Assembly (NCBI GenBank): GCA_027023665.1
Contig: JALVUY010000054.1
Span: 1-16,650 of the forward strand
DNA from: Methanocaldococcaceae archaeon
Lineage (GTDB): Archaea > AGJL01 > Methanococci > Methanococcales > Methanocaldococcaceae
Length of the DNA: 16,650 nt
Direction of reading: 5' to 3'
Part shown: one piece after another, positions 1,089-16,650 of the stretch
How positions within the stretch are numbered: the stretch's first letter is position 1
Layout: every line of letters starts with the position of its first letter
Notes under the pieces: generated by a model
Database searches by the model: none
Told to the model about the DNA's origin: nothing
The model's input: only the letters and a program-made list of their open reading frames with translations
Program-made: the position numbers and the translations under genes

Positions 1089-1185
1089 ACATCCCACCTT
1101 TTGTTTTCTAACTAATTAAGAATTATTAGATTAAAAACTCATAAAAATAGTTTAATTAAAATAAGACTTAAAAACTTAAAATGAA

Positions 1186-1198
1186 ATTATATGCTAAT
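1186..1198 (-). promoter_or_regulatory. Possible TATA box for trpS
   Basis: On the minus strand this reads GCATATAATTTC, a fair archaeal TATA box. It lies about 100 nt upstream of the trpS ATG, which would give a leader of roughly 75 nt. The whole gap (1089-1222) is so AT-rich that other TATA-like strings (for example around 1120-1135) are equally possible. This is a weak call. Confidence 0.25.
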
Positions 1199-1222
1199 AA
1201 GCAAAAAAATTTAGATGTTATT

Positions 1223-2719: not shown

Positions 2720-2734
2720 GGTTTCACCATAATC

Positions 2735-2757
2735 ATTAAGATTAAGAAATTATTTAA
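2735..2757 (-). promoter_or_regulatory. Promoter and possible operator of the marker 3 gene
   Basis: Read on the minus strand, a TATA-like TTTAAATAA (2757-2748) is followed by TCTTAATCTTAAT (2747-2735), a near-direct repeat of CTTAAT. The ATG follows 15 nt later at 2719. The same 13-mer, in the same orientation, lies upstream of the radical SAM gene (12347-12335). If the TATA box is real, the 13-mer would sit between it and the transcription start, a common place for a repressor site. The regulatory role is inferred. Confidence 0.35.
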
Positions 2758-2833
2758 AAAAAGTATTTGTTTTTACCTCTCATAAATATTCAATACCTAA
2801 TATACAGTTAAGTAAAATAAGTACTATAAAGTT

Positions 2834-4225: not shown

Positions 4226-4322
4226 AAATTTTCACCATTAAGGGTTTAACTAAATCTATTTATATAATGAACTAATACTTAAAATTATATGATTAATTAA
4301 AAATTAATGTGGGGGTATTACA
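4226..4322. promoter_or_regulatory. Divergent promoter region, cofA and RuBisCO
   Basis: This 97-nt AT-rich gap separates divergent starts. TTATATAAA on the minus strand (4267-4257 region) is a good TATA box for cofA, about 35 nt upstream of its ATG. For RuBisCO, either the same symmetric box read on the plus strand (TTTATATAA) or AATTATATG near 4283-4291 could serve. The plus-strand ribosome-binding site is the GTGGGGG run just before 4323. Which box drives which gene cannot be settled by reading. Confidence 0.5.
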
Positions 4323-5600
4323 ATGGATTATATAAACTTAGAATATGTTCCTACAGAGGATGATTTGTTATCTTGTATGATAATTAAAGGAGATAACCTA
4401 AAAAAATTAGCAAATGAAATTGCTGGAGAAAGTTCTATTGGGACTTGGACTAAAGTTCAAACAATGAAAAGCGAAATTTATGAAAAATTAAAACCAAATG
4501 TATATGAAATTAAAGAGTTAAAAGAAGAAAATGGATATAAAGTAGGATTAGTAAAAATTGCATATCCATTGTATGATTTTGAAATAAACAACATGCCTGG
4601 TGTCTTAGCAGGAATTGCTGGAAATATATTTGGAATGAAGATTGCTAAGGGTTTAAGGATATTAGATTATAGATTTCCAAAAAAGTTTGTTGAAGAATAT
4701 AAGGGACCAAGGTATGGAATTGAAGGGGTTAGAGAAACTTTAAAGATTAAAGAAAGACCATTATTGGGAACTATAGTTAAGCCAAAGGTTGGTTTAAAAA
4801 CTGAAGAACATGCTAAAGTAGCTTATGATGCATGGATTGGGGGAGTTGATCTCGTTAAAGATGATGAAAATTTAACCTCTCAGGAATTTAATAAGTTTGA
4901 AGATAGAGTTTATAAAACCTTAGAGATGAGAGATAAGGCAGAGGAAGAGACTGGAGAAAGGAAGGCATATATGCCAAATATAACTGCTCCATATAGAGAA
5001 ATGATAAGAAGGGCTGAAATATGTGAAGATGCTGGTAGTGAGTATGTTATGGTAGATGTGGTAGTTACTGGATTTTCAGCAGTTCAGTCATTTAGAGAGG
5101 AAGACTTTAACTTTATAATACACGGACATAGGGCAATGCATGCGGCAATTACAAGGAGTAAGGATTTTGGAATTTCAATGCTCGTATTAGCTAAAATATA
5201 TAGATTGTTAGGAGTTGATCAACTACATATAGGAACTGTTGTTGGAAAGATGGAGGGAGGGGAAAAGGAAGTTAAGGCAATAAGAGATGAAATAATTTAT
5301 AATGAAGTTAAAAAAGATGATGAAAATATATTCTTTGATCAGGATTGGGTAGATATAAAACCAATGTTTCCAGTGTCTTCTGGTGGAGTTCATCCAAGAT
5401 TAGTTCCTAAGATAGTTAAAATTTTAGGCAAAGATTTGATTATTCAGGCAGGGGGAGGAATTCACGGACATCCAGATGGAACAGTTGCTGGGGCCACGGC
5501 AATGAGGGCGGCAATTGAGGCAGTAATGGAAAATAAACCATTGGAAGAGAAGGCTGAGGAAGTTCCAGAACTAAAAAAAGCATTAGAACATTGGAAATAA
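4323..5600 (+). CDS. rbcL: Ribulose-1,5-bisphosphate carboxylase, archaeal form III
   Basis: Carboxylates ribulose-1,5-bisphosphate to two 3-phosphoglycerates. In archaea, form III works in AMP/nucleoside salvage and in pentose-bisphosphate pathways rather than a classical Calvin cycle. At 425 residues it has the family's usual length. All catalytic signatures are present: TIVKPKVG with Lys153/Lys155, GGVDLVKDDEN with the carbamylated Lys179 and metal ligands Asp181/Glu182, HGHR with His269/Arg270, HIGT with His302, VGKMEG with loop-6 Lys309, SSGG at 352-355 and the phosphate-binding GGGIHGHPDG near 377-386. No small-subunit gene is seen, as expected for form III. The start follows a G-rich site (GGGGG at 4312-4316). 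The gene is convergent with the methyltransferase gene, with 20 nt between stops. It is probably a single-gene transcript. AMP phosphorylase and ribose-1,5-bisphosphate isomerase genes are not in the window. Confidence 0.97.
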   Translation: MDYINLEYVPTEDDLLSCMIIKGDNLKKLANEIAGESSIGTWTKVQTMKSEIYEKLKPNVYEIKELKEENGYKVGLVKIAYPLYDFEINNMPGVLAGIAGNIFGMKIAKGLRILDYRFPKKFVEEYKGPRYGIEGVRETLKIKERPLLGTIVKPKVGLKTEEHAKVAYDAWIGGVDLVKDDENLTSQEFNKFEDRVYKTLEMRDKAEEETGERKAYMPNITAPYREMIRRAEICEDAGSEYVMVDVVVTGFSAVQSFREEDFNFIIHGHRAMHAAITRSKDFGISMLVLAKIYRLLGVDQLHIGTVVGKMEGGEKEVKAIRDEIIYNEVKKDDENIFFDQDWVDIKPMFPVSSGGVHPRLVPKIVKILGKDLIIQAGGGIHGHPDGTVAGATAMRAAIEAVMENKPLEEKAEEVPELKKALEHWK

Positions 5601-5620
5601 ATAATTTTATCCGTATATTT

Positions 5621-6478
5621 TTAAATTTTTCCAGTTTCTTTTTCTTTTGGTATTATAGATACAACTCCTAAAGCCTCTGGAACTCTTTTAACTTTTACAA
5701 ATCCTACTTTTCTTAGTCTATCCATTACTCCCTTCTGTAAATCCTTTCCCCTATATTTTTTCCCGGGATTTCCAACATAATGAAACAATCTACCCCCAGG
5801 TTTTAAAACTCTAAAAATTTCTTTGTAAAATTCTTCACTGTATAGATGTCCTGCCAAACTAAATCTTGGAGGGTCGTGGATAACTACATCAAACTCTTCA
5901 TTATCAAAGGTTTTTATAACATCAAAGGCATCTCCCATTATTATCCTTATGTCTCCTTTAAATAACTCCTCACTGTATGGATTAATTTTAGCCAACTCCA
6001 AAACATTTGGATTTTTTTCTATCGTTATAACCTTTGCTCCTCTTTTATATGCTTCAATTGCCGTATAACCCAAACCCATACAGGTGTCTAAAACCTTCTC
6101 TCCTTTTTTAACTTTTACAGAGTTGATTTTATTTAAAGTATCTTGATATGGATCAACTTCCTTAGTTCTGTGCATTCTTATTCCATTTATTTCAATTGTT
6201 GGAGGAATTGTAGGAACTAACTTATAATAGCCATTATTAGAAATTGCCGCTTTAAAGACATTTCCATCTTTTATAAAGTATATATGTCCCTCATCCTTAG
6301 CAATTTTTTTTAAAATTTCAAAACTAATATCCCCCTCAGGAAATTTAACTATTTCATTTTTTCTATCAATTATTATTTTTTCTTTTTTATCAGTTTTATT
6401 TAAGTCTAAATTTATAAAAAGTTCATCTTCTTTTGAGTTTAAAATTACCTTTGCAATTTTTGAGGTTAAATATTTCAT
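5621..6478 (-). CDS. Archaeal SAM-dependent methyltransferase of unknown target
   Basis: A Rossmann-fold methyltransferase of an archaeal family (I believe COG2521) whose substrate is unknown to me. The 285-residue protein has an N-terminal accessory region (about 1-100) of lysine-rich strands. The SAM-binding motif VLDTCMGLGYTA is at 129-140, an acidic ribose-binding residue at Glu154, and MGDAFDV at 181-187. The motif-IV-like HDPPR at 201-205 recalls the D/N-P-P-Y/F motif of N-methyltransferases, but with Arg in the last place. VLKPGGRL follows at 224-231. The longest frame begins 12 nt upstream with alternative start codons, but these lie within the ribosome-binding site TTTGGTGA, so the ATG at 6478 is chosen. 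The gene is divergent from the HTH-CBS regulator. A nucleic-acid or small-molecule (spermidine-synthase-like) target is possible; I cannot choose. Confidence 0.82.
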   Translation of the reverse strand: MKYLTSKIAKVILNSKEDELFINLDLNKTDKKEKIIIDRKNEIVKFPEGDISFEILKKIAKDEGHIYFIKDGNVFKAAISNNGYYKLVPTIPPTIEINGIRMHRTKEVDPYQDTLNKINSVKVKKGEKVLDTCMGLGYTAIEAYKRGAKVITIEKNPNVLELAKINPYSEELFKGDIRIIMGDAFDVIKTFDNEEFDVVIHDPPRFSLAGHLYSEEFYKEIFRVLKPGGRLFHYVGNPGKKYRGKDLQKGVMDRLRKVGFVKVKRVPEALGVVSIIPKEKETGKI

Positions 6479-6530
6479 AATCTTCACCAAATATTATTCT
6501 CACAAATTTTGATTAAAATCAAATCGATAA

Positions 6531-6546
6531 TTATATATTTATATAG
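6531..6546. promoter_or_regulatory. Symmetric TATA element between methyltransferase and HTH-CBS genes
   Basis: TTATATATTTATATAG reads as a TATA box in both directions. On the plus strand it would place transcription initiation near 6565-6570. On the minus strand it would place it near 6505-6510, about 30 nt before the methyltransferase ATG. It is the only strong TATA-like element in the 139-nt gap. Position relative to both genes fits; actual use is inferred. Confidence 0.5.
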
Positions 6547-6556
6547 TTTCATAATA

Positions 6557-6584
6557 TTTATCATATATGTCAATGATTTATCAT
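6557..6584 (+). promoter_or_regulatory. Direct repeats and palindrome, possible operator of HTH-CBS gene
   Basis: TTTATCAT occurs at 6557-6564 and again at 6577-6584, 20 bp apart, or about two helical turns. The second copy is part of a perfect inverted repeat, ATGAT-TT-ATCAT (6573-6584). A related TTTATAATCAT follows at 6588-6598. The elements lie just downstream of the symmetric TATA box, where a bound protein would block initiation of the regulator's own gene. Autoregulation is an inference from position. Confidence 0.4.
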
Positions 6585-6617
6585 CATTTATAATCATGAA
6601 GAGTTTAGGGGATTTAT

Positions 6618-7517
6618 ATGGAACTAACTGTTATCCAAAGAGAGATTTTACAGGAACTTATAAATCTATATAGAGAAAAAAATAGGCCAATTAAGGGAAC
6701 TGAAATAGCTCTCAGATTAAATAGAAACCCTGGAACTATTAGAAACCAAATGCAGGCATTAAGGGCATTAGATTTAGTTGATGGTGTTCCCGGACCAAAA
6801 GGGGGATATGTCCCTACAAGTAAAGCGTATAGAGCATTAGGTTTGGGAGATGAGGGGGAAATTATAGTTCCAATATACAAAGAAGGAAAAAAAGTTGAAG
6901 GAGTTAAAGTAATAAAGATTGAATTTGATACAGTTACTCACGAAAAATGTTGTTCCTCTAAGATACATATTGAAGGAGATACAAAGCATTTCAACATTGG
7001 AGACATTATAAGAGTTGGACCCACATATCATAATAAAATAATAATAAATGGAAGGGTTATTGGTAGAGATGACATTCATAGAATTTTATTAATTGATGTA
7101 TTGGGAGTTTCAAGTATTCCAAATATTAGAGTTGGAGATGTGGGAATTAAGGAGGTTTATACTGTCTCTCCAGAAAATACTTTAAGAGAGACAGCCAAGT
7201 TATTTGCAGAAAAAAACATTAGTGGGGCTCCTGTTGTAGATGATGATAGATTAGTAGGAATAATCAGTTTGCACGATATTGCTGAAAATATAGATAATGT
7301 AGATAAAAAAGTAGAGGAAGTTATGAACAGAAACGTTATAACAATTCATAAAGATGAAAAGATATATGATGCATTGGTTATTATGAATAAAAACAATGTG
7401 GGTAGATTAGTTATTGTAGATGAAAATGACAAAATCATTGGAATCATAACGAGAACTGATATATTGAAGATTATTAGCGGAAAATTTCCTGAAAATTTCG
7501 TAGTTAATAAAACGTAA
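6618..7517 (+). CDS. HTH transcriptional regulator with paired CBS domains
   Basis: A predicted DNA-binding protein with a ligand-sensing CBS module; CBS pairs commonly bind AMP/ATP or SAM. In this 299-residue protein, residues 1-75 form a winged helix-turn-helix (TEIALRLNRNPGTIRNQMQAL is the recognition region, with PGPKGGYVPT as the wing). Residues 80-165 form a beta-rich middle domain with a Cys111-Cys112 pair followed by histidines, possibly metal- or redox-responsive. Two CBS motifs follow at about 173-225 (SGAPVVDDDRLVGIISLHD) and 233-287 (GRLVIVDENDKIIGIITRTD). The ATG at 6618 follows TTAGGGGAT. It lies between RuBisCO/methyltransferase and pyruvate carboxylase genes, and upstream repeats suggest self-control. 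Domain assignment is firm; target genes and ligand are not visible. Confidence 0.87.
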   Translation: MELTVIQREILQELINLYREKNRPIKGTEIALRLNRNPGTIRNQMQALRALDLVDGVPGPKGGYVPTSKAYRALGLGDEGEIIVPIYKEGKKVEGVKVIKIEFDTVTHEKCCSSKIHIEGDTKHFNIGDIIRVGPTYHNKIIINGRVIGRDDIHRILLIDVLGVSSIPNIRVGDVGIKEVYTVSPENTLRETAKLFAEKNISGAPVVDDDRLVGIISLHDIAENIDNVDKKVEEVMNRNVITIHKDEKIYDALVIMNKNNVGRLVIVDENDKIIGIITRTDILKIISGKFPENFVVNKT

Positions 7518-7533
7518 CTTTCCCTAAGTAAAG

Positions 7534-7562
7534 CATAAATATTATTTCGCCCAATATTTATG
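7534..7562. promoter_or_regulatory. 10-bp inverted repeat downstream of HTH-CBS gene
   Basis: CATAAATATT (7534-7543) and AATATTTATG (7553-7562) are perfect inverted copies separated by nine bases (ATTTCGCCC). It begins 17 nt after the HTH-CBS stop and lies about 127 nt before pycB. It could be an operator, a pair of opposed TATA elements or a transcript-end hairpin. Its weak AT pairing and lack of a following T-run argue against a strong terminator. Confidence 0.4.
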
Positions 7563-7606
7563 TCACGATAAAACTTAATATCAATCACTTTTTAGTCTCT
7601 TCAATT

Positions 7607-7626
7607 TATCAATTTTTGATATAAAT
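7607..7626 (+). promoter_or_regulatory. Promoter of pycB with abutting inverted repeat
   Basis: TATCAA-TTT-TTGATA (7607-7621) is a perfect inverted repeat. Its right arm runs into a TATA-like GATATAAAT (7618-7626). Initiation about 25 nt downstream would leave a leader of roughly 40 nt before the pycB ATG at 7689. The ribosome-binding site is GAGGGAT at 7678-7684. A protein bound to the repeat would cover the BRE/TATA region, so it is a good repressor-site candidate. The role is inferred. Confidence 0.45.
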
Positions 7627-7688
7627 GCCACAAATATTGTTTTCTATTCTATTTTTAAAAATGGATATAGCTATAATGAGGGATAAGA

Positions 7689-9392
7689 ATGGTTAAAATA
7701 ACAGATACTACTTTTAGAGATGCACAACAATCGTTAATAGCCACAAGGATGAGAACTGAAGATATGTTGCCAATTGCCGAAAAGATGGATGAAGTTGGAT
7801 TCTATTCTATGGAAGTCTGGGGAGGAGCTACTTTTGATGTCTGTATTAGATATTTAAATGAAGATCCTTGGGAAAGATTAAGAGAGTTAAAAAAGAGAAT
7901 TCAAAATACTCCACTACAGATGCTTTTAAGGGGGCAGAATTTAGTTGGTTACAGGCATTATCCTGACGATATAGTTGAAAAATTTGTAATAAAAGCTCAT
8001 GAGAATGGAATTGATATATTCAGAATTTTTGATGCTTTGAATGATGTAAGAAATATGGTAACTGCTATAAAAACTGCTAAAAGAGTAGGGGCAGAGGTTC
8101 AAGGGGCAATATGTTACACAATAAGTCCTGTTCATACGATTGACCAATATGTAGAATTGGCAAAAAAGTTGGAGGAATTAGGTTGTGATACAATATACAT
8201 TAAAGATATGGCAGGATTATTAACACCTTATGAAGGTTATGAGTTAGTTAAAAGACTTAAAGAAGAAGTTTCAGTTCCTGTTGGGGTTCATAGTCACTGC
8301 ACAAGTGGATTGGCTCCAATGACATATATAAAAGTCATTGAGGCAGGGGCAGATATAGTAGACTGTGCAATATCTCCATTTGCTATGGGAACTTCTCAAC
8401 CTCCAACAGAGAGTATTGTAGCGGCGTTAAAAGGAACTAAATACGATACAGGATTGGACTTAAAATTATTAAATGAAATTAGAGATTACTTTATGAAAGT
8501 TAGAGAGAAATACAAGATGTTAATATCTCCAATATCTCAAATAGTAGATGCAAGAGTTTTAATATACCAAGTTCCAGGGGGAATGTTGTCAAACTTAGTC
8601 TCACAGCTTAAAGAGCAAGGTGCCTTAGATAAACTTGAAGATGTCTTAAAAGAAATACCAAGAGTTAGAAAAGATTTAGGTTACCCACCATTAGTTACAC
8701 CAACATCTCAAATTGTTGGAACTCAGGCAGTTTTGAATGTCTTAACTGAGGAAAGGTATAAAGTTATCACTAACGAAGTAGTTAATTATGTAAAAGGTTA
8801 TTATGGAAAGCCACCAGCACCAATAAATCCAGAATTATTAAAGAGGGTATTAGATGAAGGAGAAAAACCTATTACATGCAGACCTGCAGACTTGTTAGAG
8901 CCAGAATGGGAAAAGGTAAAGAAGGAAGCAGAAGAAAAAGGTATTGCGAAAAAAGAGGAAGATATTTTAACATATGCATTATATCCACAGATAGCAGTTA
9001 AATTCTTAAGAGGAGAGTTAAAACCTGAACCAATACCAAAAGAGAAGGATATAGAGAAGATTTTAGAGATTCCAACAGAGTATATTGTTGAAGTTAATGG
9101 GGAAAAGTTTGAGGTTAAAATTGAGCCAAAGATAGGAACAGAATTAAAGAGAAAGAAAGAAATTATTACTGCAGAAATTGAAGGGGCAGTAACATCTCCA
9201 TTTAGAGGAATAGTAACAAAAATTAAAGTTAAAGAAGGAGATAAAGTTAAAAAAGGTGATGTTATTGCAGTATTAGAGGCTATGAAAATGGAGCATCCAA
9301 TAGAGAGCCCAGTTGAGGGAATTGTAGAAAAAATATTAATTGATGAAGGAGATGCTGTAAATGTAGGAGATGTAATTATGATTATAAAATAA
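7689..9392 (+). CDS. pycB: Pyruvate carboxylase subunit B (carboxyltransferase plus biotin carrier)
   Basis: Transfers the carboxyl group from carboxybiotin to pyruvate, making oxaloacetate for the incomplete reductive TCA route and aspartate synthesis. The 567-residue protein has an HMG-lyase-like TIM barrel first. It shows DTTFRDAQQS at 6-15, the metal/carbamyl-lysine segment YIKDMAGLL with Lys172, and the metal-binding His201/His203 in GVHSHCTSG. A conserved carboxylase linker domain covers about 290-460. A C-terminal biotinyl domain has AMKM with the biotin-accepting Lys533. The same architecture occurs in the alpha subunit of sodium-pumping oxaloacetate decarboxylase. Immediate linkage to a biotin carboxylase gene, with no membrane beta/gamma subunits, supports pyruvate carboxylase. 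pycA follows after 83 nt. Confidence 0.95.
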   Translation: MVKITDTTFRDAQQSLIATRMRTEDMLPIAEKMDEVGFYSMEVWGGATFDVCIRYLNEDPWERLRELKKRIQNTPLQMLLRGQNLVGYRHYPDDIVEKFVIKAHENGIDIFRIFDALNDVRNMVTAIKTAKRVGAEVQGAICYTISPVHTIDQYVELAKKLEELGCDTIYIKDMAGLLTPYEGYELVKRLKEEVSVPVGVHSHCTSGLAPMTYIKVIEAGADIVDCAISPFAMGTSQPPTESIVAALKGTKYDTGLDLKLLNEIRDYFMKVREKYKMLISPISQIVDARVLIYQVPGGMLSNLVSQLKEQGALDKLEDVLKEIPRVRKDLGYPPLVTPTSQIVGTQAVLNVLTEERYKVITNEVVNYVKGYYGKPPAPINPELLKRVLDEGEKPITCRPADLLEPEWEKVKKEAEEKGIAKKEEDILTYALYPQIAVKFLRGELKPEPIPKEKDIEKILEIPTEYIVEVNGEKFEVKIEPKIGTELKRKKEIITAEIEGAVTSPFRGIVTKIKVKEGDKVKKGDVIAVLEAMKMEHPIESPVEGIVEKILIDEGDAVNVGDVIMIIK

Positions 9393-9475
9393 GCCAATAA
9401 AATAAATGAATTTAAAACTCCTTTTTTAGCATTTTAAATAATTCAATTAATCTCTTTTATGTAAGGGTGGAAAAT

Positions 9476-10990
9476 ATGTTTAACAAAGTTTTAATAGCAA
9501 ATAGGGGAGAAATTGCCATTAGAATTATAAGAGCTTGTTGGGAATTAGGGATAAAAACGGTTGCAGTATATTCTAAGGCAGATAAAAAATCTTTACATGT
9601 CTCTTTGGCTGACGAGGCATACTGTATAGGGGATGCTCCAGCGGTAAAGAGTTACTTAAATATTGATGCAATCCTTAATGTTGCTGAAAAAGCAAAAGTT
9701 GATGCAATTCATCCAGGATATGGATTCTTAGCAGAGAATGCTAAATTTGCAAGGGCTGTAAAAAAGGCAGGTTTTGAGTTTATAGGACCTAATCCTGACG
9801 CTATAGAGGCTATGGGTAGTAAAATTAATGCTAAAAAAATTATGAGAAAGGCAGGAGTTCCTTTAATACCCGGAAGTGAAGGGGCTGTTGAAGATGTTGA
9901 TGAAGCTATTGAAATTGCTGAAGAGATAGGGTTTCCTGTAGTTGTTAAAGCTTCCGCTGGCGGTGGCGGAATGGGAATGAGTGTCGCCTATAACAAAGAG
10001 GAGTTAAAAGACGTTTTAGAATCTGCAAGAAATATTGCAAAGAGTGCATTTGGAGATCCAACGGTATTCATTGAAAAATACTTAGAAAACCCAAGACATA
10101 TAGAGATACAGTTATTAGGGGATAAGCATGGAAATATTATTCATTTAGGAGATAGAGAGTGTTCTATTCAAAGAAGACATCAAAAATTGATAGAGGAAGC
10201 TCCATCTCCAATAATGACTGAAGAGTTAAGAGAAAGAATGGGAGAGGCTGCAATTAAGGCAGGTAAGGCAATAAATTACGATAGTGCAGGAACTGTCGAA
10301 TTTTTGTATGAAAATGGTAATTTCTACTTCTTAGAGATGAATACAAGGATTCAGGTTGAGCATACAGTTACAGAACAAGTTACTGGAATTGATTTAGTTA
10401 AGGCTATGATTAAAATAGCCACTGGAGAGGAGTTAAGTATAAAACAGGAGGATGTTAAGATAAGAGGGCATGCTATTGAGTGTAGAATTAACGCGGAAGA
10501 TCCATTAAATGACTTCGTTCCATGCCCCGGAAAAATAAAGCTTTATAGATCACCTGGAGGGCCAGGAGTTAGAATAGATAGTGGTGTCTGTGGAGGGGCG
10601 GAGATTCCTCCATATTACGATCCAATGATTGCAAAATTAATAACCTATGGAAATAGTAGAGAAGAGGCAATAGCAAGGATGAGAAGGGCTTTAAAAGAAT
10701 ATGTTATTGTTGGTGTTACTACAAACATTCCATTTCATAGAGCTGTTTTAGAGGAGGAAAACTTCTTAAAAGGGAATTTATCAACACACTATGTTGAACA
10801 AAATATGCCTAAATTAAAGAAATTGATGGTCAAATATGCTTTAGAATCAAGAGATCTATATAGCGTTGTTTCAGAAAAAGTCTTTGAAAAGAATACAAAA
10901 GTAGCCGCTGTTATAGGTGGATTGTCAATGTATGTTAATTTAATAATGAAAGAGAAGAATAATCAAAAGAACAAAGAAAGTAAGAGTTAA
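9476..10990 (+). CDS. pycA: Pyruvate carboxylase subunit A (biotin carboxylase)
   Basis: ATP-dependent carboxylation of the biotin on PycB with bicarbonate. The 504-residue protein contains the N-terminal biotin carboxylase fold ([16 protein letters not shown]) and [10 protein letters not shown] at about 79-88. The ATP-grasp glycine loop [11 protein letters not shown] lies at about 158-168. Further landmarks are [13 protein letters not shown], the catalytic [14 protein letters not shown], and a C-terminal biotin-carboxylase domain with ECRINAEDP. The last 35 or so residues form a hydrophobic helix-like stretch ([16 protein letters not shown]) followed by a charged Lys/Asn-rich tail, not part of the catalytic core and possibly for subunit contact. 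A GTG nine bases upstream (9467) also opens the frame, but it lies inside the ribosome-binding site GGGTGG, so the ATG at 9476 is preferred. A TTTTAAATAA at about 9433-9442 could be a promoter of its own. Confidence 0.95.
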
Positions 10991-10991
10991 T

Positions 10992-11109
10992 TTATAGTTG
11001 TGTATAAAATAAAATAAACTTTTTAAAGGAAAATTTGAATGTCTTACCTTTTAGTAAGGCATTCTTTAGTTCCTTATTTTAGTCAAAAAACTTTTGCACA
11101 CAACTATAA
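10992..11109. repeat. Nested inverted repeat between pycA and aIF5A (possible structured RNA)
   Basis: Starting one base after the pycA stop, TTATAGTTGTGT (10992-11003) is the exact inverted copy of ACACAACTATAA (11098-11109). Pairing can continue inward past one mismatch to 11009/11092. Inside lie two further complementary pairs. AAGGAA (11026-11031) matches TTCCTT (11070-11075). GAATGTCTTAC (11037-11047) matches GTAAGGCATTC (11054-11064) with one G-T pair and a six-base loop. The arms are concentric, so the segment could fold as one long stem-loop of about 118 nt. It could be a 3' end structure of the pycBA mRNA, a small RNA gene or a small mobile remnant. No clear target duplication flanks it. 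The structure is seen; the function is unknown. Confidence 0.6.
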
Positions 11110-11114
11110 TATAA

Positions 11115-11130
11115 TCGTAATATTTATATA
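11115..11130 (+). promoter_or_regulatory. Promoter of aIF5A gene
   Basis: TTTATATA at 11123-11130, preceded by CGTAATA as a BRE-like element, is a good archaeal core promoter. It predicts initiation near 11150 and a leader of about 35 nt before the ATG at 11185. The ribosome-binding site is AAAGGTGAT at 11173-11181. The box is nearly symmetric and could also fire leftward into the nested inverted repeat. Confidence 0.6.
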
Positions 11131-11184
11131 ACATAAAAGAATAGTTATTAAAAGCCTCTTTTTAATGAAATTAAAGGTGATAAA

Positions 11185-11586
11185 ATGCCAGGAACTAAGC
11201 AAGTTAATGTTGGTTCATTAAAAGTCGGACAGTATGTTATGATTGATGGAGTTCCATGTGAAATTGTAGATATCAGCGTTTCAAAGCCTGGAAAACATGG
11301 AGGAGCTAAGGCAAGAGTAGTAGGAATTGGACTATTTGAGAAAGTTAAAAAAGAATTCGTTGCTCCAACATCAAGTAAAGTAGAAGTACCAATAATTGAC
11401 AGAAGAAAAGGGCAAGTTTTAGCAATTATGGGAGATATGGTACAAATAATGGACTTACAAACTTATGAAACCTTAGAATTACCAATTCCAGAAGGTATTG
11501 AAGGTTTAGAACCAGGATGTGAGGTAGAGTATATAGAGGCAGTTGGTCAGTATAAAATAGCAAGAGTTCTTGGAGGAAATAAATAA
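11185..11586 (+). CDS. eif5a: Translation factor aIF5A, hypusine-containing
   Basis: Archaeal homologue of eIF5A/EF-P, which binds between the P and E sites of the ribosome and relieves stalling during peptide-bond formation. The 133-residue length is usual. The N-terminal SH3-like domain carries the modification loop [13 protein letters not shown]. Lys37 is the predicted target of deoxyhypusine synthase; archaea carry deoxyhypusine or hypusine here. The C-terminal OB domain begins about residue 70 ([19 protein letters not shown]). The start is supported by GGTGATAAA just before the ATG. It has its own promoter, and its stop is only 3 nt from that of the convergent radical SAM gene. Confidence 0.97.
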
Positions 11587-11589
11587 ATT

Positions 11590-12312
11590 TTAAATTTCAA
11601 AAACTCCATTTACAGTCCTTATATTAACATTATCAATATATTTCTTTGCTATTTTTCCTAATTCTCTTAATTCATTTTCTTTTGGAGATGGCAGTTTTCT
11701 AAACTCTTCATCGTAAGCATCTTTTGGTTCAAATTGTTGAATAACATATAAATCACAATTTTTAACAGTTTTTGCTATTTCCTCAATATCACTTTTATCC
11801 ATAACCTTTGGAACATAGGTAGTTCTACATTCAACAAATACATTATTTTTTTTACATAAATCAATTATCTTCAATATTTTATTTCTAATAGTTTCTCCAT
11901 CTTCTTTACATTTTGTAAATTCCTTATATTTGTCAAATCTACATTTTACATCAACTGCTACATAATCAATAAGATTATGATTTATTAAATATTCAATAAC
12001 CTCAGGATGTGTTCCATTAGTATCAATTTTTACTGGAAATCCATTTATTTTAGCATATTTTGCAATTTCAATTACTGCATCTTTTTGTAAAGTAGGTTCT
12101 CCGCCACTTATAACTATTGCCTCAGAGAAGAAAAAATCTATATTTTTAAATAACTCATCCACAGTCATTTCCTTTTTATGTGTTAAAATAAAATTTAAAT
12201 TGTGACAATACGGACATCTCATATTACAACCATACAAAAATATGACAGAAGAGCATTTTTTTGGGTAGTCAATTGTTGATAAATCTACAATTCCAGAAAC
12301 GAGAACTTTCAT
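11590..12312 (-). CDS. Radical SAM glycyl-radical activase, NrdG2-like
   Basis: A radical SAM protein of the pyruvate formate-lyase-activase / anaerobic ribonucleotide reductase activase type, expected to install a glycyl radical on a partner enzyme. The CxxxCxxC cluster motif is at Cys29, Cys33 and Cys36 (YGCNMRCPYCHN). SGGEPTL near residues 94-100 is the SAM-binding GGE element, and VDVKCRF lies mid-protein. The 240-residue length and the opening GIVDLSTIDYP fit the NrdG2 type, which usually acts on class III ribonucleotide reductase. That reductase is not in the window, so the partner is inferred. The start is fixed by AGGTGAAAAT before the ATG. It lies downstream of the four-CBS gene with an 85-nt gap that contains a T-run, so it is probably transcribed separately. 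Confidence 0.85.
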   Translation of the reverse strand: MKVLVSGIVDLSTIDYPKKCSSVIFLYGCNMRCPYCHNLNFILTHKKEMTVDELFKNIDFFFSEAIVISGGEPTLQKDAVIEIAKYAKINGFPVKIDTNGTHPEVIEYLINHNLIDYVAVDVKCRFDKYKEFTKCKEDGETIRNKILKIIDLCKKNNVFVECRTTYVPKVMDKSDIEEIAKTVKNCDLYVIQQFEPKDAYDEEFRKLPSPKENELRELGKIAKKYIDNVNIRTVNGVFEI

Positions 12313-12334
12313 ATTTTCACCTAAGAATTAAATG

Positions 12335-12347
12335 ATTAAGATTAAGA
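12335..12347 (-). promoter_or_regulatory. Shared TCTTAATCTTAAT motif upstream of the radical SAM gene
   Basis: On the minus strand this 13-mer lies 22 nt upstream of the ATG at 12312 and just downstream of an AT-rich TATA-like tract (12355-12368). An identical 13-mer in the same orientation precedes the marker 3 gene. The pair suggests a common operator or 5' leader element, but AT-rich composition makes coincidence possible. Confidence 0.3.
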
Positions 12348-12355
12348 TGATTAAT

Positions 12356-12362
12356 AAAAAAA
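12356..12362 (-). terminator. Poly-T tract after the four-CBS gene
   Basis: On the minus strand seven consecutive T residues lie about 36 nt past the stop codon of the four-CBS gene. Archaeal transcription commonly ends at such T-runs without a hairpin. No stable hairpin is seen here. Read-through into the radical SAM gene cannot be excluded. Confidence 0.35.
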
Positions 12363-12397
12363 TAAATAATTAATTAAACTTAAAAAATATTTATTAA

Positions 12398-13240
12398 TTA
12401 AACAAAGTATTTTAAAACATCCTTTTCTGTAATAATTCCTTTTATTTTCATATTTTCATCAACTACAGGTAAAGCCCCTATATCGTTAGTTACCATTATT
12501 TTAGCCACATCTTTCAATTTGTCTCCTTCTTTTGCAGTTATAACATCTCTTCTCATAATTTCTTCCATTCTCACATTTGTTATTTCTCTAACATTTCCTG
12601 TTTGTAAGTGATTAAATGCCCAATCACTACCTAAAAGCTTTATAAAATCTGTTGATGTTATAATTCCTACTAATCTATCCTCAGAAACTACAGGTAATCT
12701 TCTAAAGTTATTTCTAACCATAGTTCTCGCAACATCTTTTAATCTCTCTCCTGGAGTAGCATATAGAACATCTCTCGTTATATAATCATCTATAACTTCG
12801 TTTTCGTCTATTCTATCTAATAATGCTCTAATTACATCCCTTTCAGTAATCATTGATATTAATTGATAATCATCATTGACTATTGGTACTCCACCAACGT
12901 TTTTTGTTAAGAAAGTTTCTATAGCATCATCAATATCTGCATTTTCTTTGAGGGTTATAACATTCTCCTCCATTATTTCTCTAACAGGCTCGTTTATTGC
13001 GGCATATAAATTTCTATTATGTTTTTCTCTTGTTAAATTGTATTTTGAGCCCCCTCCCATAAAATCTACAATATCCATACTTGTTAATATTCCAACAAGT
13101 TTGTTATTTCCTGGATTAACTACAGGTAATCTTCTGTATTTATTTTCGTTCATTGTCATTAAAGCCTTTCTTATTGTAGTAGTTGGATATATACAGATTA
13201 TTTCTTTATCTTGAACAACTCTTAACACTCTCACAATCAT
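12398..13240 (-). CDS. Four-CBS-domain protein
   Basis: A 280-residue protein consisting only of four CBS motifs, forming two Bateman modules, with no catalytic or DNA-binding domain. The repeats lie at about residues 8-60 (RRLPVVNPGNNKLVGILTSMD), 80-135 (GGVPIVNDDYQLISMITERD), 145-200 (RRLPVVSEDRLVGIITSTD) and 222-280 (GALPVVDENMKIKGIITEKD). Such stand-alone proteins usually bind adenine nucleotides or SAM and may regulate partners by contact. The repeats alternate in type: 1 and 3 share RRLPVV, while 2 and 4 share G(G/A)(V/L)P(I/V)V, pointing to duplication of a two-motif unit. The ATG at 13240 follows GAGGG with almost no spacer, so a GTG two codons later (13234) may be the true start. No ligand can be assigned from sequence. 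Confidence 0.85.
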   Translation of the reverse strand: MIVRVLRVVQDKEIICIYPTTTIRKALMTMNENKYRRLPVVNPGNNKLVGILTSMDIVDFMGGGSKYNLTREKHNRNLYAAINEPVREIMEENVITLKENADIDDAIETFLTKNVGGVPIVNDDYQLISMITERDVIRALLDRIDENEVIDDYITRDVLYATPGERLKDVARTMVRNNFRRLPVVSEDRLVGIITSTDFIKLLGSDWAFNHLQTGNVREITNVRMEEIMRRDVITAKEGDKLKDVAKIMVTNDIGALPVVDENMKIKGIITEKDVLKYFV

Positions 13241-13269
13241 CCCTCACAAAACCTTTTTAAGTAAAAAAC

Positions 13270-13287
13270 TTACATTTAAAGATGTAA
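13270..13287 (-). promoter_or_regulatory. Inverted repeat enclosing TATA-like box of the four-CBS gene
   Basis: TTACAT-TTAAAG-ATGTAA is a perfect 6-bp inverted repeat. On the minus strand its centre reads CTTTAA, part of a TATA-like CTTTAAATG about 35 nt upstream of the start, so it would be both promoter core and operator. Initiation would fall near 13250, leaving a very short leader. The role is inferred. Confidence 0.4.
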
Positions 13288-13330
13288 ATTAATATTGATT
13301 ATAGCCAATAATATTATTTATCTACAATTG

Positions 13331-13338
13331 TATAAAAT
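13331..13338 (+). promoter_or_regulatory. TATA box of the UPF0216-to-pyrC operon
   Basis: TATAAAAT lies 50 nt before the ATG at 13388 and predicts initiation near 13360. It is the best plus-strand TATA box in the gap and stands at the head of five closely spaced genes, with no comparable box between them. It is therefore the likely promoter for the whole operon. Confidence 0.5.
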
Positions 13339-13387
13339 ATTTTACTATTTTCTATTTCTATATTAACAAATTAATAATGTGATGTTT

Positions 13388-13795
13388 ATGGATGACAAAA
13401 ACTTAGATAGAATTATCAAAGGAATAATAAGAGAATTTAAAGTATCATTTAAAAGAAAAAGATTAAAAGATTTGTTAAATGAAGAAAAACCTTATATAAT
13501 AATCAACGGTAAGAGGCATAGGATAAAGAGAAGAGAGCTTGAACTTCTAAGAGAGATAGGTAGTAGTGAGGATTTAAAAATTCCAATAGTTTTAGAAGTT
13601 GACCCTTCATTAGGTGGGGCTATAAAAGTTAGTGGTAAAGAAGAGGTTAAAGTAATCTCAAAAATATTAGGGAGAGATATAAATATGTTCTCAGAGGAAG
13701 ATGTATTATACATATATAAACCAGAGTTAAGGATCGTTAGAAGAGAACTACCTACAACGACTCAAATTATATTTAAATTTTCATTATATGACTAA
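13388..13795 (+). CDS. UPF0216 / DUF61 family protein, function unknown
   Basis: A conserved archaeal protein family without known function. The 135-residue product is soluble and basic in its first half (FKRKRLKDLLNEEKPYIIINGKRHRIKRRELE), a composition compatible with nucleic-acid contact. A more hydrophobic second half ends in VRRELPTTTQIIFKFSLYD. PIVLEVDPSLGGAIKVSGKEE near residues 66-86 is the most conserved-looking part. Earlier in-frame starts at 13379 (GTG) and 13382 (ATG) overlap the ribosome-binding site GTGAT (13379-13383), so the ATG at 13388 is chosen. It is the first gene of the operon and is followed after 18 nt by the 55-residue membrane protein. Family recognition is good; function is unknown. 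Confidence 0.82.
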   Translation: MDDKNLDRIIKGIIREFKVSFKRKRLKDLLNEEKPYIIINGKRHRIKRRELELLREIGSSEDLKIPIVLEVDPSLGGAIKVSGKEEVKVISKILGRDINMFSEEDVLYIYKPELRIVRRELPTTTQIIFKFSLYD

Positions 13796-13813
13796 ATTAA
13801 TATAGTGATAATT

Positions 13814-13981
13814 ATGAAAAGAAAAAAATATTATGGAAAAAATCCAATAAAAAGACTTTTATATGAAAAAAGAGAACAAATCTTTAAATTTTTATTTATT
13901 ATGAATATATGGGTTTGGCTGTCTGTATTTATTGGAGCAATTATATTTATATTTTTGATGGTAAAATATTATTTAACGTAG
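13814..13981 (+). CDS. 55-residue single-span membrane protein
   Basis: Small gene of 55 codons. The N-terminal 22 residues are strongly basic (MKRKKYYGKNPIKRLLYEKR). They are followed by one hydrophobic span at about residues 24-50, rich in Ile, Phe and Trp (IWVWLSVFIGAIIFIFLMV), and a short YYLT end. The positive-inside rule puts the N-terminus in the cytoplasm. A ribosome-binding site (AGTGAT, 13804-13809) precedes the ATG. It fits tightly between the UPF0216 gene (18 nt) and the MrpF-like gene (14 nt), which supports it as real. I do not recognise a family. A partner subunit of the MrpF-like protein is a reasonable guess from spacing. Confidence 0.7.
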   Translation: MKRKKYYGKNPIKRLLYEKREQIFKFLFIMNIWVWLSVFIGAIIFIFLMVKYYLT

Positions 13982-13995
13982 ATATTGGTGATAAA

Positions 13996-14274
13996 ATGAA
14001 TTTCATAGTTTGGCTGTTTGCAATTATTGCCCTAAGTTTCTCGGCACTGGTAGGTTTAAGATTAGCATTTAAAAAAGGAACAGCCAATGTTTTAATTGGA
14101 GAATCTATATTGACAGCAGTTATTGGTACTTTACTTGTAGTAATTTCTCAGAAATACAAAATAGCCTTTGCCAATAGTATAGCATTGGCTATATTTATAT
14201 GTGGTGTTGTTGGTGCATTTGCATTCTGCAAGGTAATAGGTGAAAATAATGGATCAAAATGTACAAATAAATAA
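13996..14274 (+). CDS. MrpF/MnhF-like three-span membrane protein
   Basis: A 92-residue integral membrane protein with three predicted spans at about residues 2-23, 34-51 and 57-79. Length, spacing of spans and the motif RLAFKKGTANVLIGESILTA resemble subunit F of Mrp-type multisubunit Na+/H+ antiporters. In methanogens, similar subunits belong to the energy-converting hydrogenases Eha/Ehb. No other antiporter or hydrogenase subunits are visible here, so it would be an orphan or a scattered subunit. The frame extends upstream to 13909, but GGTGATAAA directly precedes the ATG at 13996, and the extension would overlap the 55-residue gene; hence this start. The C-terminus overlaps the next gene by 26 nt. 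Membrane topology is clear; the MrpF assignment is by resemblance. Confidence 0.7.
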   Translation: MNFIVWLFAIIALSFSALVGLRLAFKKGTANVLIGESILTAVIGTLLVVISQKYKIAFANSIALAIFICGVVGAFAFCKVIGENNGSKCTNK

Positions 14275-14956
14275 GGATGATATATTTATTGTAATTCCAG
14301 CATATAATGAAGAGAAAATGATTTCAACAACTTTAAAAAATTTGAAAAAAGAAGGATATAAAAACATAATTGTTGTTGATGATGGTTCAAGAGATAAAAC
14401 TTACGAATTGGCAAAAAAAGAGGATGTTATAGTATGTAAGCATATATTAAATAGAGGATTAGGAGGAGCATTAGGTACTGGAATTAAGTGTGCTTTACTC
14501 TATACACCAAAGGTTATTGTAACTTTTGATGCTGATGGACAACATCATCCTAAGGATGTTGAAAAAGTCGTAAAGCCAATATTTGAGGGTTATGATTTTG
14601 TTATAGGTAGTAGGATGATGGACAAAAATGAGTTAAAGAATATGCCATTAGTTAAAAGAATTGGAAACTTTGGATTAAATTTTATAACTTACTTGATGGG
14701 TGGTTATTTAGTAACTGACAGCCAAAGTGGTTTAAGGGCATTTTCTTATGAAGCGGCAAAAAAAATTATTAAGGAGTTAAAGAGTGATAGATACGAAGTT
14801 TCATCAGAATTTATAATTTTAGCCAAAAAAAACAAATTAAAGTTAAAGGAAGTACCAATAAAAACAATATATACTGAATATTCAATGTCGAGAGGAACCA
14901 ATGTTAAGACAGGATTTAAGATTTTATTTAAGTTGATTATACAAAAAATTACTTAG
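14249..14956 (+). CDS. Family 2 glycosyltransferase, dolichyl-phosphate-sugar synthase-like
   Basis: Inverting GT-A glycosyltransferase, likely transferring a nucleotide-activated sugar to a polyprenyl (dolichyl) phosphate at the cytoplasmic face for glycolipid or glycoprotein assembly. Motifs in the 235-residue protein are IVIPAYNEE at 14-22, [10 protein letters not shown] at 42-51, the nucleotide/metal-binding FDADGQHH with Asp94 and Asp96, GSRMM at 120-124, and DSQSGLRAF at 157-165, typical of DPM1-like enzymes. No C-terminal membrane spans follow, as in the short DPM1-type. A GTG start at 14240 lies inside the ribosome-binding site AGGTGA (14238-14243), so the ATG at 14249 is used. It overlaps the MrpF-like gene and precedes pyrC by 23 nt. 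Sugar and acceptor are not determined. Confidence 0.87.
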
Positions 14957-14979
14957 ATTTAGATTATATGGGGAGAATA

Positions 14980-16248
14980 ATGTTACTTAAAAATTGTAGA
15001 ATAGTAAAAGATAATAAGATTGTTGAATGTGATATTTTAATTGAAGATAGTAGAATTAAAAAAATCTCTAAAAATATAAATATAAACGATGAAAAAGTTA
15101 ATTTAAAAAATTATATTGTTATTCCAGGAGTTATTGATGCTCATGTCCATTTTAGATGGGGAGAATGTGAAAAAGAGGATTTTTTAAGTGGAAGTTTGGC
15201 AGGGATAAATGGGGGAGTGTGTTTTGCCATAGATATGCCTAACAATAAGCCTCCAATAACTACAAAAGAACTTTTTTATAAAAAACTTGAAGACTGTAAA
15301 AAAGAGAGTAAAATAAATATATTTTTAAATTTTGGAATTACAGAAAAAAATTATCTTGAGAATATAAAGGAGGCAAAGGCATACAAGATATTTATGGTTA
15401 AATCTGTGGGTGATTTATATATTGAAGATTATTCAAAGTTAAAAGATATTTTAAATCAAAATAAGCGTTTTTGTATTCACGCGGAGCATAAAGATATAAT
15501 TAATAAAAATATGAAAATTTATGAATTGAAAAGTTGGATTGACCATTGTAAAATAAGAGATGAAAAATCAGAGGTTGAGGCAGTTAGAGAAGTTATAAAA
15601 ATCTTAGAATTTATTGATAAAGTTGGGAAATATAAGCCTCATATCCATTTTTGTCATATATCTACAAAAAAATCATTGGAAATAATAAAAGATGCAAAAC
15701 AAAGATTAAAAAATGTTAAGATTACTGTTGAAGTTACTCCCCACCACATTTATTTAAATAAGGAAATGGCTGAGGAATTAAAAGGTTTTGGAAAATTTAA
15801 TCCACCCTTGAGGAGTAAGGAAGATAACATAGCGTTAATTAAAGGGATTGTAAATAGAGATGTAGATATAATCGCCTCAGACCATGCTCCACATTTATTA
15901 GAAGACAAGCTTAAAGATGTTAAAAACTGTCCTTCAGGAATTCCTGGAATTGAGACTATCGTTCCTTTAACTTTAAATTTAGTTAATAAAGATCTAATAA
16001 CATTATTTGATGCTATAAGGATATTATCAGAGAATCCAGCTAAAATATTTGATATAAATAACAAAATTGAAGAGGGTAATTTGGCTAATTTAACTATTAT
16101 TGATTTGAAAAAAGAAGGAAAGATTATGGCAGATTTATTTAAATCCAAGGCAAAATTTAGTCCTTTTGATAAGTTTTTAGTTAGAGGGTTTCCAATATAT
16201 ACAGTAGTTAATGGGATATTATATGAAGCAATTGGAAATATTTTATAG
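14980..16248 (+). CDS. pyrC: Dihydroorotase
   Basis: Third step of pyrimidine synthesis: reversible cyclisation of N-carbamoyl-L-aspartate to dihydroorotate. A 422-residue amidohydrolase of the class I type. The zinc motif is DAHVHFR with His55 and His57. Further landmarks are DMPNNKPP at 85-92 (substrate binding), IHAEH at 166-170, HFCHIST with His226, and SDHAPH with Asp301 and His302. The substrate-binding FNPPLRSK lies at 273-280. The segment [12 protein letters not shown] at about 134-145 is where some relatives have the bridging carbamyl-lysine. An ATG at 14968 is possible, but it overlaps the ribosome-binding site TGGGGAG (14969-14975), so 14980 is chosen. It is the last gene of the operon. 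The stop is followed at once by the structured, more GC-rich region. Confidence 0.95.
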
Positions 16249-16269
16249 CCATAGAGGGTAAAGCCGTTT

Positions 16270-16335
16270 CCCATTTCCATAGCATATCGTAGTATTTAAC
16301 AATATATCATACAAACCGATAGCTATGGAAATGGG
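16270..16335. repeat. Long near-perfect hairpin
   Basis: CCCATTTCCATAGC (16270-16283) and GCTATGGAAATGGG (16322-16335) are exact 14-base inverted copies. After one bulged A, TATCG (16285-16289) pairs with CGATA (16317-16321), and GTAT (16292-16295) with ATAC (16309-16312). That leaves a loop of 13 bases. It is the most stable-looking stem in the window and is probably part of the candidate RNA. It could also shape the 3' end of the pyrC transcript, as it folds on either strand. Confidence 0.75.
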
Positions 16336-16446
16336 TTATCCTCAGCCCATAGCTTCATCGAGAATACCATTCTATCTGCCATAGGTTCATTGGACTTCCG
16401 GGCTGAACGGAGACAGCCCCTAAAATCTTTTTATCAAAGGTATTTG

Positions 16447-16474
16447 ACCTCGAAGGCAGAGCCCTCTCATCGGT
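16447..16474 (-). other. Kink-turn motif in candidate RNA
   Basis: On the minus strand: stem ACC, bulge GAU, tandem GA, six-pair stem GAGGGC/GCCUUC closed by loop UCU, then GA, then GGU closing the first stem. This is the canonical kink-turn arrangement (three-base bulge followed by two sheared G-A pairs), the binding site of archaeal L7Ae. Flanking UUAUC (16485-16481 region) and GAUAA (after CCUUU) can pair as an outer stem, leaving an internal loop like an H/ACA pocket. Confidence 0.6.
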
Positions 16475-16498
16475 TATAACGATAATATTGTCCCGCTG

Positions 16499-16509
16499 AT
16501 ATTTATATG
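16499..16509 (-). promoter_or_regulatory. TATA box for candidate RNA
   Basis: On the minus strand ACATATAAATA is a strong archaeal TATA box, preceded by TATCGTA as a possible BRE. It predicts initiation near 16480, directly before the kink-turn hairpin. Its position relative to the structured island is the main reason for assigning the RNA to the minus strand. Confidence 0.45.
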
Positions 16510-16578
16510 TTACGATATGCTACAAACCCTACCTTTTATCTCATGATGTTACTTATGTTATATCTTAAGATCTATTAA

Positions 16579-16602
16579 TTTAGGTATATATTTAGGTATA
16601 TA
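16579..16602 (+). repeat. Tandem duplication of a 12-bp unit
   Basis: TTTAGGTATATA occurs twice in exact tandem (16579-16590 and 16591-16602). It lies in the AT-rich tail of the window (16531-16650), where I see no open reading frame or RNA motif. Confidence 0.8.
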
Positions 16603-16612
16603 ATTTTAAAAC

Positions 16613-16640
16613 TTTAAATTATAAAATTTAAATTATAAAA
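16613..16640 (+). repeat. Tandem duplication of a 14-bp unit
   Basis: TTTAAATTATAAAA occurs twice in exact tandem (16613-16626 and 16627-16640), ten bases after the 12-bp tandem pair. Simple AT composition may favour slippage here. Promoter-like TATA content is present on both strands. Confidence 0.8.
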
Positions 16641-16650
16641 ACAGTAAAAT

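Follow-up and report, generated by a model that had tools for sequence, protein, structure and literature searches.

A gene-less IS607-family MITE next to archaeal pyrC with a predicted kink-turn RNA of TnpB guide-RNA type

The DNA directly behind pyrC in a Methanocaldococcaceae archaeon holds a gene-less MITE of an IS607-family transposon, which has lost both genes of the transposon and kept both ends together with the RNA scaffold. The window analyzed here is a stretch of 16,650 nt (GCA_027023665.1, contig JALVUY010000054.1). From the minus strand of the element, an RNA with a covarying fold and two canonical kink-turns is predicted. According to our best reading, which we hold with considerable confidence, this IS607-derived MITE keeps a stand-alone TnpB omegaRNA that would take its guide from the pyrC-side flank, have L7Ae as a partner and be served by TnpB in trans. 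The parts of the element are as follows.

16264–16526 (minus): whole mini-element of 263 bp, left end TTTGTAG at 16526 and right end AAACGG at 16264, from the repeat alignment; boundaries set by a rule taken from the element-free sites of three other copies
16527–16530 (minus): AGGG of the left flank, insertion target and predicted TnpB target-adjacent motif, from 26 left-end hits
16500–16507 (minus): TATA box TATAAATA, part of the transposon left end; GATGA of the kink-turn lies 36 nt downstream
16477 (minus): predicted RNA 5′ end, uncertain by several nt, by analogy with sRkB, whose mapped 5′ end precedes GATGA by 6 nt
16445–16476 (minus): Kt-a hairpin with kink-turn 1; where a copy has tnpB, these bases encode DERALPSR of TnpB
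16476–16472/16449–16445 (minus): C-stem of Kt-a, four of five pairs standard in the window copy and one A/C
16471–16469 and 16468–16467/16451–16450 (minus): bulge GAU and tandem GA of Kt-a, with the six-pair stem GAGGGC/GCCTTC
16400–16419 (minus): P2 stem GGGCTG/CAGCCC, loop containing CCGTT (16410–16406)
16338–16395 (minus): P3-P4-P5 arm with kink-turn 2 (GA 16376–16375 with GATGA 16359–16355)
within 16338–16395 (minus): third, kink-turn-like junction AATGA/(T)GA with an extra U
16270–16335 (minus): P6 stem, arms 16335–16322 (CCCATTTCCATAGC) and 16283–16270 (GCTATGGAAATGGG), in minus-strand letters
16264–16268 (minus): AACGG at the end of the element, able to pair with the P2 loop in a predicted pseudoknot and directly followed by the predicted guide
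16244–16263 (minus): predicted guide (assumed length 20 nt) in the flanking DNA that covers the stop codon of pyrC, based on the element architecture and on published IS607 guide RNAs
14968–16248 (plus): pyrC reading frame (named by the earlier note), neighbor and proposed guide source

Composition and motifs of the stretch behind pyrC

An earlier note, made from the letters of the window, had described a GC-richer island beside pyrC with a kink-turn, a GATGA...CTGA element, a six-pair stem and a TATA box on the minus strand. All of these are present. The GC content is 0.403 in 16264–16526 and 0.302 in positions 1–16263; the canonical elements of the kink-turn lie at 16476–16445, the six pairs of GGGCTG/CAGCCC at 16419–16414/16405–16400, and the TATA box at 16507–16500. 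GATGA...CTGA is likewise real (minus strand, 16359–16342), but its halves sit in two different internal loops of the conserved fold. A box C/D-like reading of these motifs was therefore rejected.

Across both strands of the window, a strict kink-turn pattern had a single match, at the 16476–16445 site; a first-order Markov control gave 0.23 matches per window (100 simulations, maximum 2). Thus, one match alone is unremarkable, and its conservation has to decide. The folding energy is low on both strands, with z values of −3.35 for the minus and −3.89 for the plus strand. The strand is therefore chosen not by energy but by the orientation of TnpB and by the kink-turn, which both point to the minus strand.

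The earlier note had further suggested a member of the hgc class or a new non-coding RNA. A search of the window and 17 related loci against Rfam with Infernal, the check it had named, returned no family at the gathering score, and the sub-threshold matches of the window had E values of 0.49 and above. The hgc families are presumably contained in Rfam, and both an Rfam family and an hgc RNA were rejected. The idea of a new RNA at a single locus did not hold either, the stretch being a transposon-derived dispersed repeat with 52 core matches.

No frame of at least 60 aa and no transposase gene lies within 16264–16526, and the sole listed frame that overlaps the element is a minus frame at 15750–16280, antisense to pyrC. 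On the other side, positions 16530–16650 form an AT-rich flank that runs to the contig end, leaving out of view the gene that follows pyrC in several relatives.

Copies, ends and insertion target

A DNA search of 41 genomes found the repeat in nine, often with many matches per genome; the match in G033 is a 29-bp piece only, and the copies of G007 lie at 268858, 780521, 1228055 and 1433704. R1, a covariance model of the core of the repeat built on 30 copies, matched 52 places in 8 of 36 genomes: 17 in G008 (LR792634.1, Methanocaldococcus sp. SG1), 15 in G013, six in the window's own genome, five in G001, four in G007 (which we take to be M. jannaschii), two each in G009 and G016, and one in G012. 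The DNA flanking the repeat varies widely from copy to copy. When R1 was run on 20 loci from other TnpB lineages of Methanococcales, it gave nothing better than E 0.4, and none of 182 pattern stretches in viral contigs encodes a relative.

A single non-coding RNA gene tied to pyrC was rejected, as copies sit elsewhere and, in eight relatives, the repeat was absent from the 260 nt that follow the pyrC match. The flank of the window copy could not be aligned behind pyrC in relatives. Two genomes have a copy approximately 1 kb behind pyrC (G008:C1:551290-551378 and G013:C1:1051733-1051821), by an insertion different from that of the window. At locus L054 (G008:C1:406238-407369), one copy has apparently entered a related one; portions of the same RNA fold lie on either side of the inner element and are joined at AAGG.

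A complete PF07282 TnpB domain directly precedes the core at nine of the 52 R1 places and a partial one at four; at the other 39, no PF07282 domain is listed next to the core. The scaffold lies at the 3′ end of tnpB and stops at the right end of the transposon. On NF040570 (cut-off 100), the TnpB of locus L122 scored 101.2 bits and that of L121 90.7 bits, just below. The motifs ALDFNLDNITYG, (I/V)IE and YADRD, which we take to be the RuvC motifs, are present, and a search of solved structures returned one TnpB-like chain only. At L117 (G012:C1:692800-697000; 1300–3359), a frame of 214 aa that resembles a transposase and seems to be a second insertion sequence splits tnpB, and the RNA end is kept.

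The left end of the window element matches locus L030 over 27 bp at 93%, directly before an IS607 TnpA gene (NF033518, 2.8e-45), and the left ends of three other copies match the same locus at 84–92%. In G009, a left end, a TnpA remnant, TnpB and a right end form one element, and G001 contains two elements with left end, TnpB and right end in succession. In gene-less copies, including that of the window, the left end is joined to the RNA region, inside which approximately 50 nt coding for MYCF..YADRD are missing. As a property of its class, the IS607-family MITE is predicted to be mobilized in trans by TnpA. Another IS607 lineage is represented by L149 (G007:C1:13500-16955), with a TnpA of 48% identity and a weak left-end match. 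The overlapping locus L200 is not among the listed R1 matches, and the guide RNA of this lineage probably differs.

Element-free sites were found for at least three of 18 sites, namely those of L045 (in G007 and G006), L051 (in G012 and G007) and L059 (in G013, G008, and G000); for the window copy, such a site was absent among the matches listed. These sites indicate that the element spans TTTG to AAACGG, with GG at both junctions and no target duplication. The element-free L059 sites read exactly AGGG plus the right flank, and the L045 and L051 sites read AGAG there. The four bases before the 26 hits of the left-end pattern are AGGG (20), CGGG (two), AGAG (one), TATT (two), and GTGT (one). 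Thus, GGG precedes the element at 22 of the 26 hits, while the TATT and GTGT cases, which have no G pair, fit the target rule badly. The available text of PMC6188088 gives (G)GG as the target of IS607.

Fold of the predicted RNA and its relatives in other archaea

Alignment A1 comprised 39 of the 52 element rows, after 11 truncated or rearranged rows and two duplicates had been dropped; alignment A2 kept 30 of the 39, without eight divergent rows and one identical row. The base-paired scaffold is conserved. The fold proposed for A1 consists of 54 pairs including the predicted pseudoknot, with 91.8% of cells paired, and structures slid along the same alignment reached at most 47.2%. Twenty pairs changed on both sides, amounting to 80 such cells against 33.0 ± 4.9 in shuffles, which ignore relatedness, and these cells count sequences, not events. 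The covarying pairs that the earlier note had named as evidence are thus present in the repeat copies, and the fold supports a structured minus-strand RNA of about the proposed size with a conserved kink-turn. RNAalifold recovered the Kt-a hairpin with its open GAU-GA/GA loop from the alignment, the structure not being supplied.

The kink-turn has the defining arrangement of two helices joined by a bulge of 3 nt and, after it, tandem G.A pairs; its first bulge base varies among the 39 rows. The tandem GA pairs of Kt-a are intact in 36 of the 39 rows, those of Kt-b also in 36, and both in 33. The third junction, AAUGA/(U)GA, is kink-turn-like but has an extra U. Between the CCGUU of the P2 loop and the final AACGG, 92.7% of the A1 cells are complementary; since both are nearly invariant, this predicted pseudoknot shows little covariation, with one co-changed cell.

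When TnpB was used as a protein query, a Thermococcus contig was found at 41% identity, on which R1 matches the 3′ end of tnpB (87 bits, E 5.5e-20). P3, P4, and P5 are kept there in changed sequence, and P2 is unchanged. As this contig (G131:C242) falls in the order of G040, we refer to that order as Thermococcales. R1 matched 46 Thermococcales places in 20 of 94 genomes, and by a loose motif test 18 of 30 loci have a TnpB-like frame. The phylum of G038, which is not that of the window, yielded nine places in 8 of 300 genomes, six of them in TnpB-like frames (by eye), and a search of the group of G037, run without a positive control, gave matches in 0 of 151 genomes. AACGG is found downstream in 29 and CCGTT in the loop in 28 of the 30 Thermococcales loci (counted by eye); AACGG is present in seven of the nine from the phylum of G038.

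Two alignments spanned these lineages: A4, with 43 matches (30 of the 46 Thermococcales places and others from Methanocaldococcus and G016), and A6, with 32 rows chosen by hand from the A4 material and the matches in the phylum of G038. Fitted to R1, and so leaning towards its structure, the cross-lineage alignments had 97.0% of cells paired for Methanocaldococcus and Thermococcales (211 both-sided changes against 58.9 ± 9.2) and 94.6% with the further families in A6 (173 against 49.6 ± 6.7), while slid structures paired at 52% or less. Both-sided changes occurred in each of the four core helices, and the number of A6 pairs with such a change was reached by 2 of 500 shuffles.

Upstream of the core, the strict kink-turn pattern occurred at 20 of 40 loci, or at 19 of 39 when L211 and L216, which are the same contig stretch, are counted once; among random stretches it occurred in 29 of 1600. 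The Kt-a alignment A5 (29 rows) paired at 95.5%, a partly circular value, as 19 of the 29 rows had been picked by a finder that requires pairing; its pairs with both-sided change were reached by 158 of 500 shuffles. These shuffles, too, take no account of relatedness, and as controls the pair counts of A5 and A6 are weak.

Six R1 matches fell in G044, a genome that we take to be that of P. abyssi, an assignment backed by two coordinate coincidences, with sRkB and sRkC. The match at 810097–810185 (+) lies inside published sRkB (809887–810256), and that at 1613057–1613145 (−) inside published sRkC (1612986–1613347; PMC3124441). The available text of this paper reports six similar P. abyssi loci, of which only sRkB and sRkC were seen transcribed. 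According to the same text, L7Ae shifts both RNAs in gels, T1 footprinting places it at two K-turns of sRkB, and GA mutants lose the L7Ae shift (data not shown in the paper); the authors suggest a link of the RNAs to the downstream gene. In sRkB, the mapped 5′ end (810048) coincides with the first base of the stem of Kt-a, where GGATTC precedes GATGA. Its short 3′ ends (209–218 nt) fall 2–11 nt past AACGG, short of a 20-nt guide, and its long form (340–343 nt) ends approximately 133–136 nt past AACGG (PMC3124441, available text). From the TATA box to GATGA, we counted 36 nt in the window and 37 nt in sRkB (by eye), and with this similar spacing an RNA start near 16477 is predicted. Because the homologous sRkB and sRkC bind L7Ae in the published gel shifts, L7Ae, with which the earlier note had associated the RNA, is a likely partner of the window RNA as well.

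Proposed function, alternatives and known systems

We propose that the MITE lost tnpA and tnpB and retained the left end with its TATA box, the right end and a complete TnpB omegaRNA/reRNA scaffold. The TATA box would drive a transcript that starts at the Kt-a hairpin (16477) and runs through the fold and the right end (16264) into the pyrC-side DNA, which would form the guide portion of the RNA. L7Ae would bind this RNA at the kink-turns as a structural partner, and TnpB would be loaded in trans, for example from G000:C234. The RNA–TnpB complex would cut insertion-free alleles, that is, AGGG followed by the pyrC 3′ end, and selection would thereby keep the MITE in place.

Alternatively, the conserved palindromes could be DNA sites for transposition, bound by TnpA at the ends and without any RNA role. 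The long P6 palindrome at the right end and the plus strand, which folds as well as the minus strand, would suit such sites. Kt-a, however, is approximately 180–213 bp away from the right end and falls within the tnpB gene of full copies; the changes in each of the four core helices are both-sided, and the homologues are transcribed and bind L7Ae, as far as the available text of PMC3124441 goes. We give this explanation little credence.

Quite unlikely, too, is a domesticated L7Ae-bound regulatory RNA outside the TnpB system, for instance a leader or terminator beside the neighbor gene. The window copy does sit directly behind pyrC, and the restriction of observed transcription to two of the six P. 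abyssi loci, together with the downstream-gene link made by the authors (PMC3124441, available text), would fit such a role. Against it, flanks differ widely from copy to copy, the copies stop at the right end of the transposon, and several of the genomes concerned still encode a cognate TnpB.

That the stretch is a mere tnpB pseudogene fragment, its conservation being accounted for by the protein, is highly improbable. In its favor, Kt-a codes for DERALPSR, and L122, L117 and several further-family loci share a similar, in-frame C-terminal tail (SPK.N.P..E..V.PMK.W). Against it, L118, L119, and L121 (three of the five proteins compared) have a frame-shifted or shortened tail; pairing is as good in rows without a tnpB link as in the eight tnpB rows (approximately 92% vs. 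90% of cells); and the window copy and most gene-less rows keep Kt-a without the approximately 50 nt for MYCF..YADRD. In full-length tnpB copies, the likeness of the tails means that protein constraint may add to the conservation. The earlier note had regarded an aligned reading frame in relatives as speaking against an RNA; such a frame exists, that of the TnpB C-terminus, but the RNA reading nonetheless stands, because the rows without tnpB keep the fold and the tail is broken in three of five proteins.

The reading as a TnpB guide RNA can be compared with known systems. According to the available text of PMC3124441, sRkB and sRkC resemble the RNA described here in their two K-turns, in being dispersed repeats, one of them at the 3′ end of an OrfB (tnpB) gene, and in having a promoter 24 nt before the 5′ end, which is the first base of the Kt-a stem; the covariance model finds them homologous at the published coordinates. 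The same text relates them to OrfB of IS607 and IS200/605. It describes them, however, as P. abyssi-specific ncRNAs without a known role and not as guide RNAs, whereas the RNA here occurs in three archaeal groups and in IS607 MITEs.

In bacterial IS607 elements, an RNA from the right end guides TnpB (PMC11061315 and PMC10711439, available text). The IS607 TnpB reRNA with RAGATH-18 shares a possible kink-turn, mentioned in one sentence, and a G-rich TAM, and PK2 of the solved reRNA, which joins a loop to the scaffold bases directly preceding the guide, is a counterpart of the predicted pseudoknot (PMC11061315, available text). It differs in being bacterial and wholly outside the tnpB coding sequence, whereas the RNA here overlaps the tnpB 3′ end. 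The RNA here also has no Rfam match, RAGATH-18 presumably being among the models searched. As described in the available part of PMC10711439, ISXfa1 TnpB and its reRNA likewise have the TAM GGG, an insertion between GG dinucleotides and an RNA that continues past the transposon boundary, but ISXfa1 has its own tnpB, and the first flanking base is part of its scaffold. The archaeal omegaRNAs of IS200/IS605 elements are also located at the tnpB 3′ end but belong to another transposon family, and kink, L7Ae, and IS607 are absent from the available text (PMC12558985). Among the papers listed, which cover few subscription journals, none joined archaeal TnpB guide RNAs with L7Ae or a kink-turn; PMC12817955 mentions both TnpB and L7Ae in its available text without joining them.

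We conclude that the RNA is probably an archaeal IS607-type TnpB guide-RNA scaffold, with kink-turns kept by compensatory change in distant lineages, which suggests that host L7Ae is possibly a part of archaeal TnpB particles. This reading gives a testable identity to the L7Ae-bound, transposase-linked archaeal RNAs of 2011. Only tentatively do we extend this to a widespread archaeal TnpB lineage that would work as a three-part particle of TnpB, guide RNA and host L7Ae, with the MITEs as guide-only passengers that borrow TnpA to move and TnpB–L7Ae to cut their own empty sites and are retained for that reason. If true, this would connect a Cas12 ancestor with the box C/D, H/ACA and RNase P RNP machinery. 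The dispersed gene-less copies that keep the scaffold provide a natural test of TnpB cutting that serves MITEs in trans.

Palindromic repeats of M. jannaschii were reportedly described by Suyama in 2005. Prokaryotic MITEs, as far as the sources at hand describe them, are a precedent for gene-less elements; MITEs of the present kind were not found for Methanocaldococcus in the literature searched, including the available text of PMC2229807. In A1, the rows L045, L047, and L053 (G001), L071 and L073 (G007) and L051 (G016) carry deletions of the linker between Kt-a and P2 that differ across species, which suggests several origins of gene-less copies. Four Thermococcales loci (L214, L218, L220, and L241) have no TnpB-like frame and 20–26 nt between Kt-a and the core. 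They resemble the Methanocaldococcus MITEs, and a gene loss that keeps the whole RNA may have taken place more than once.
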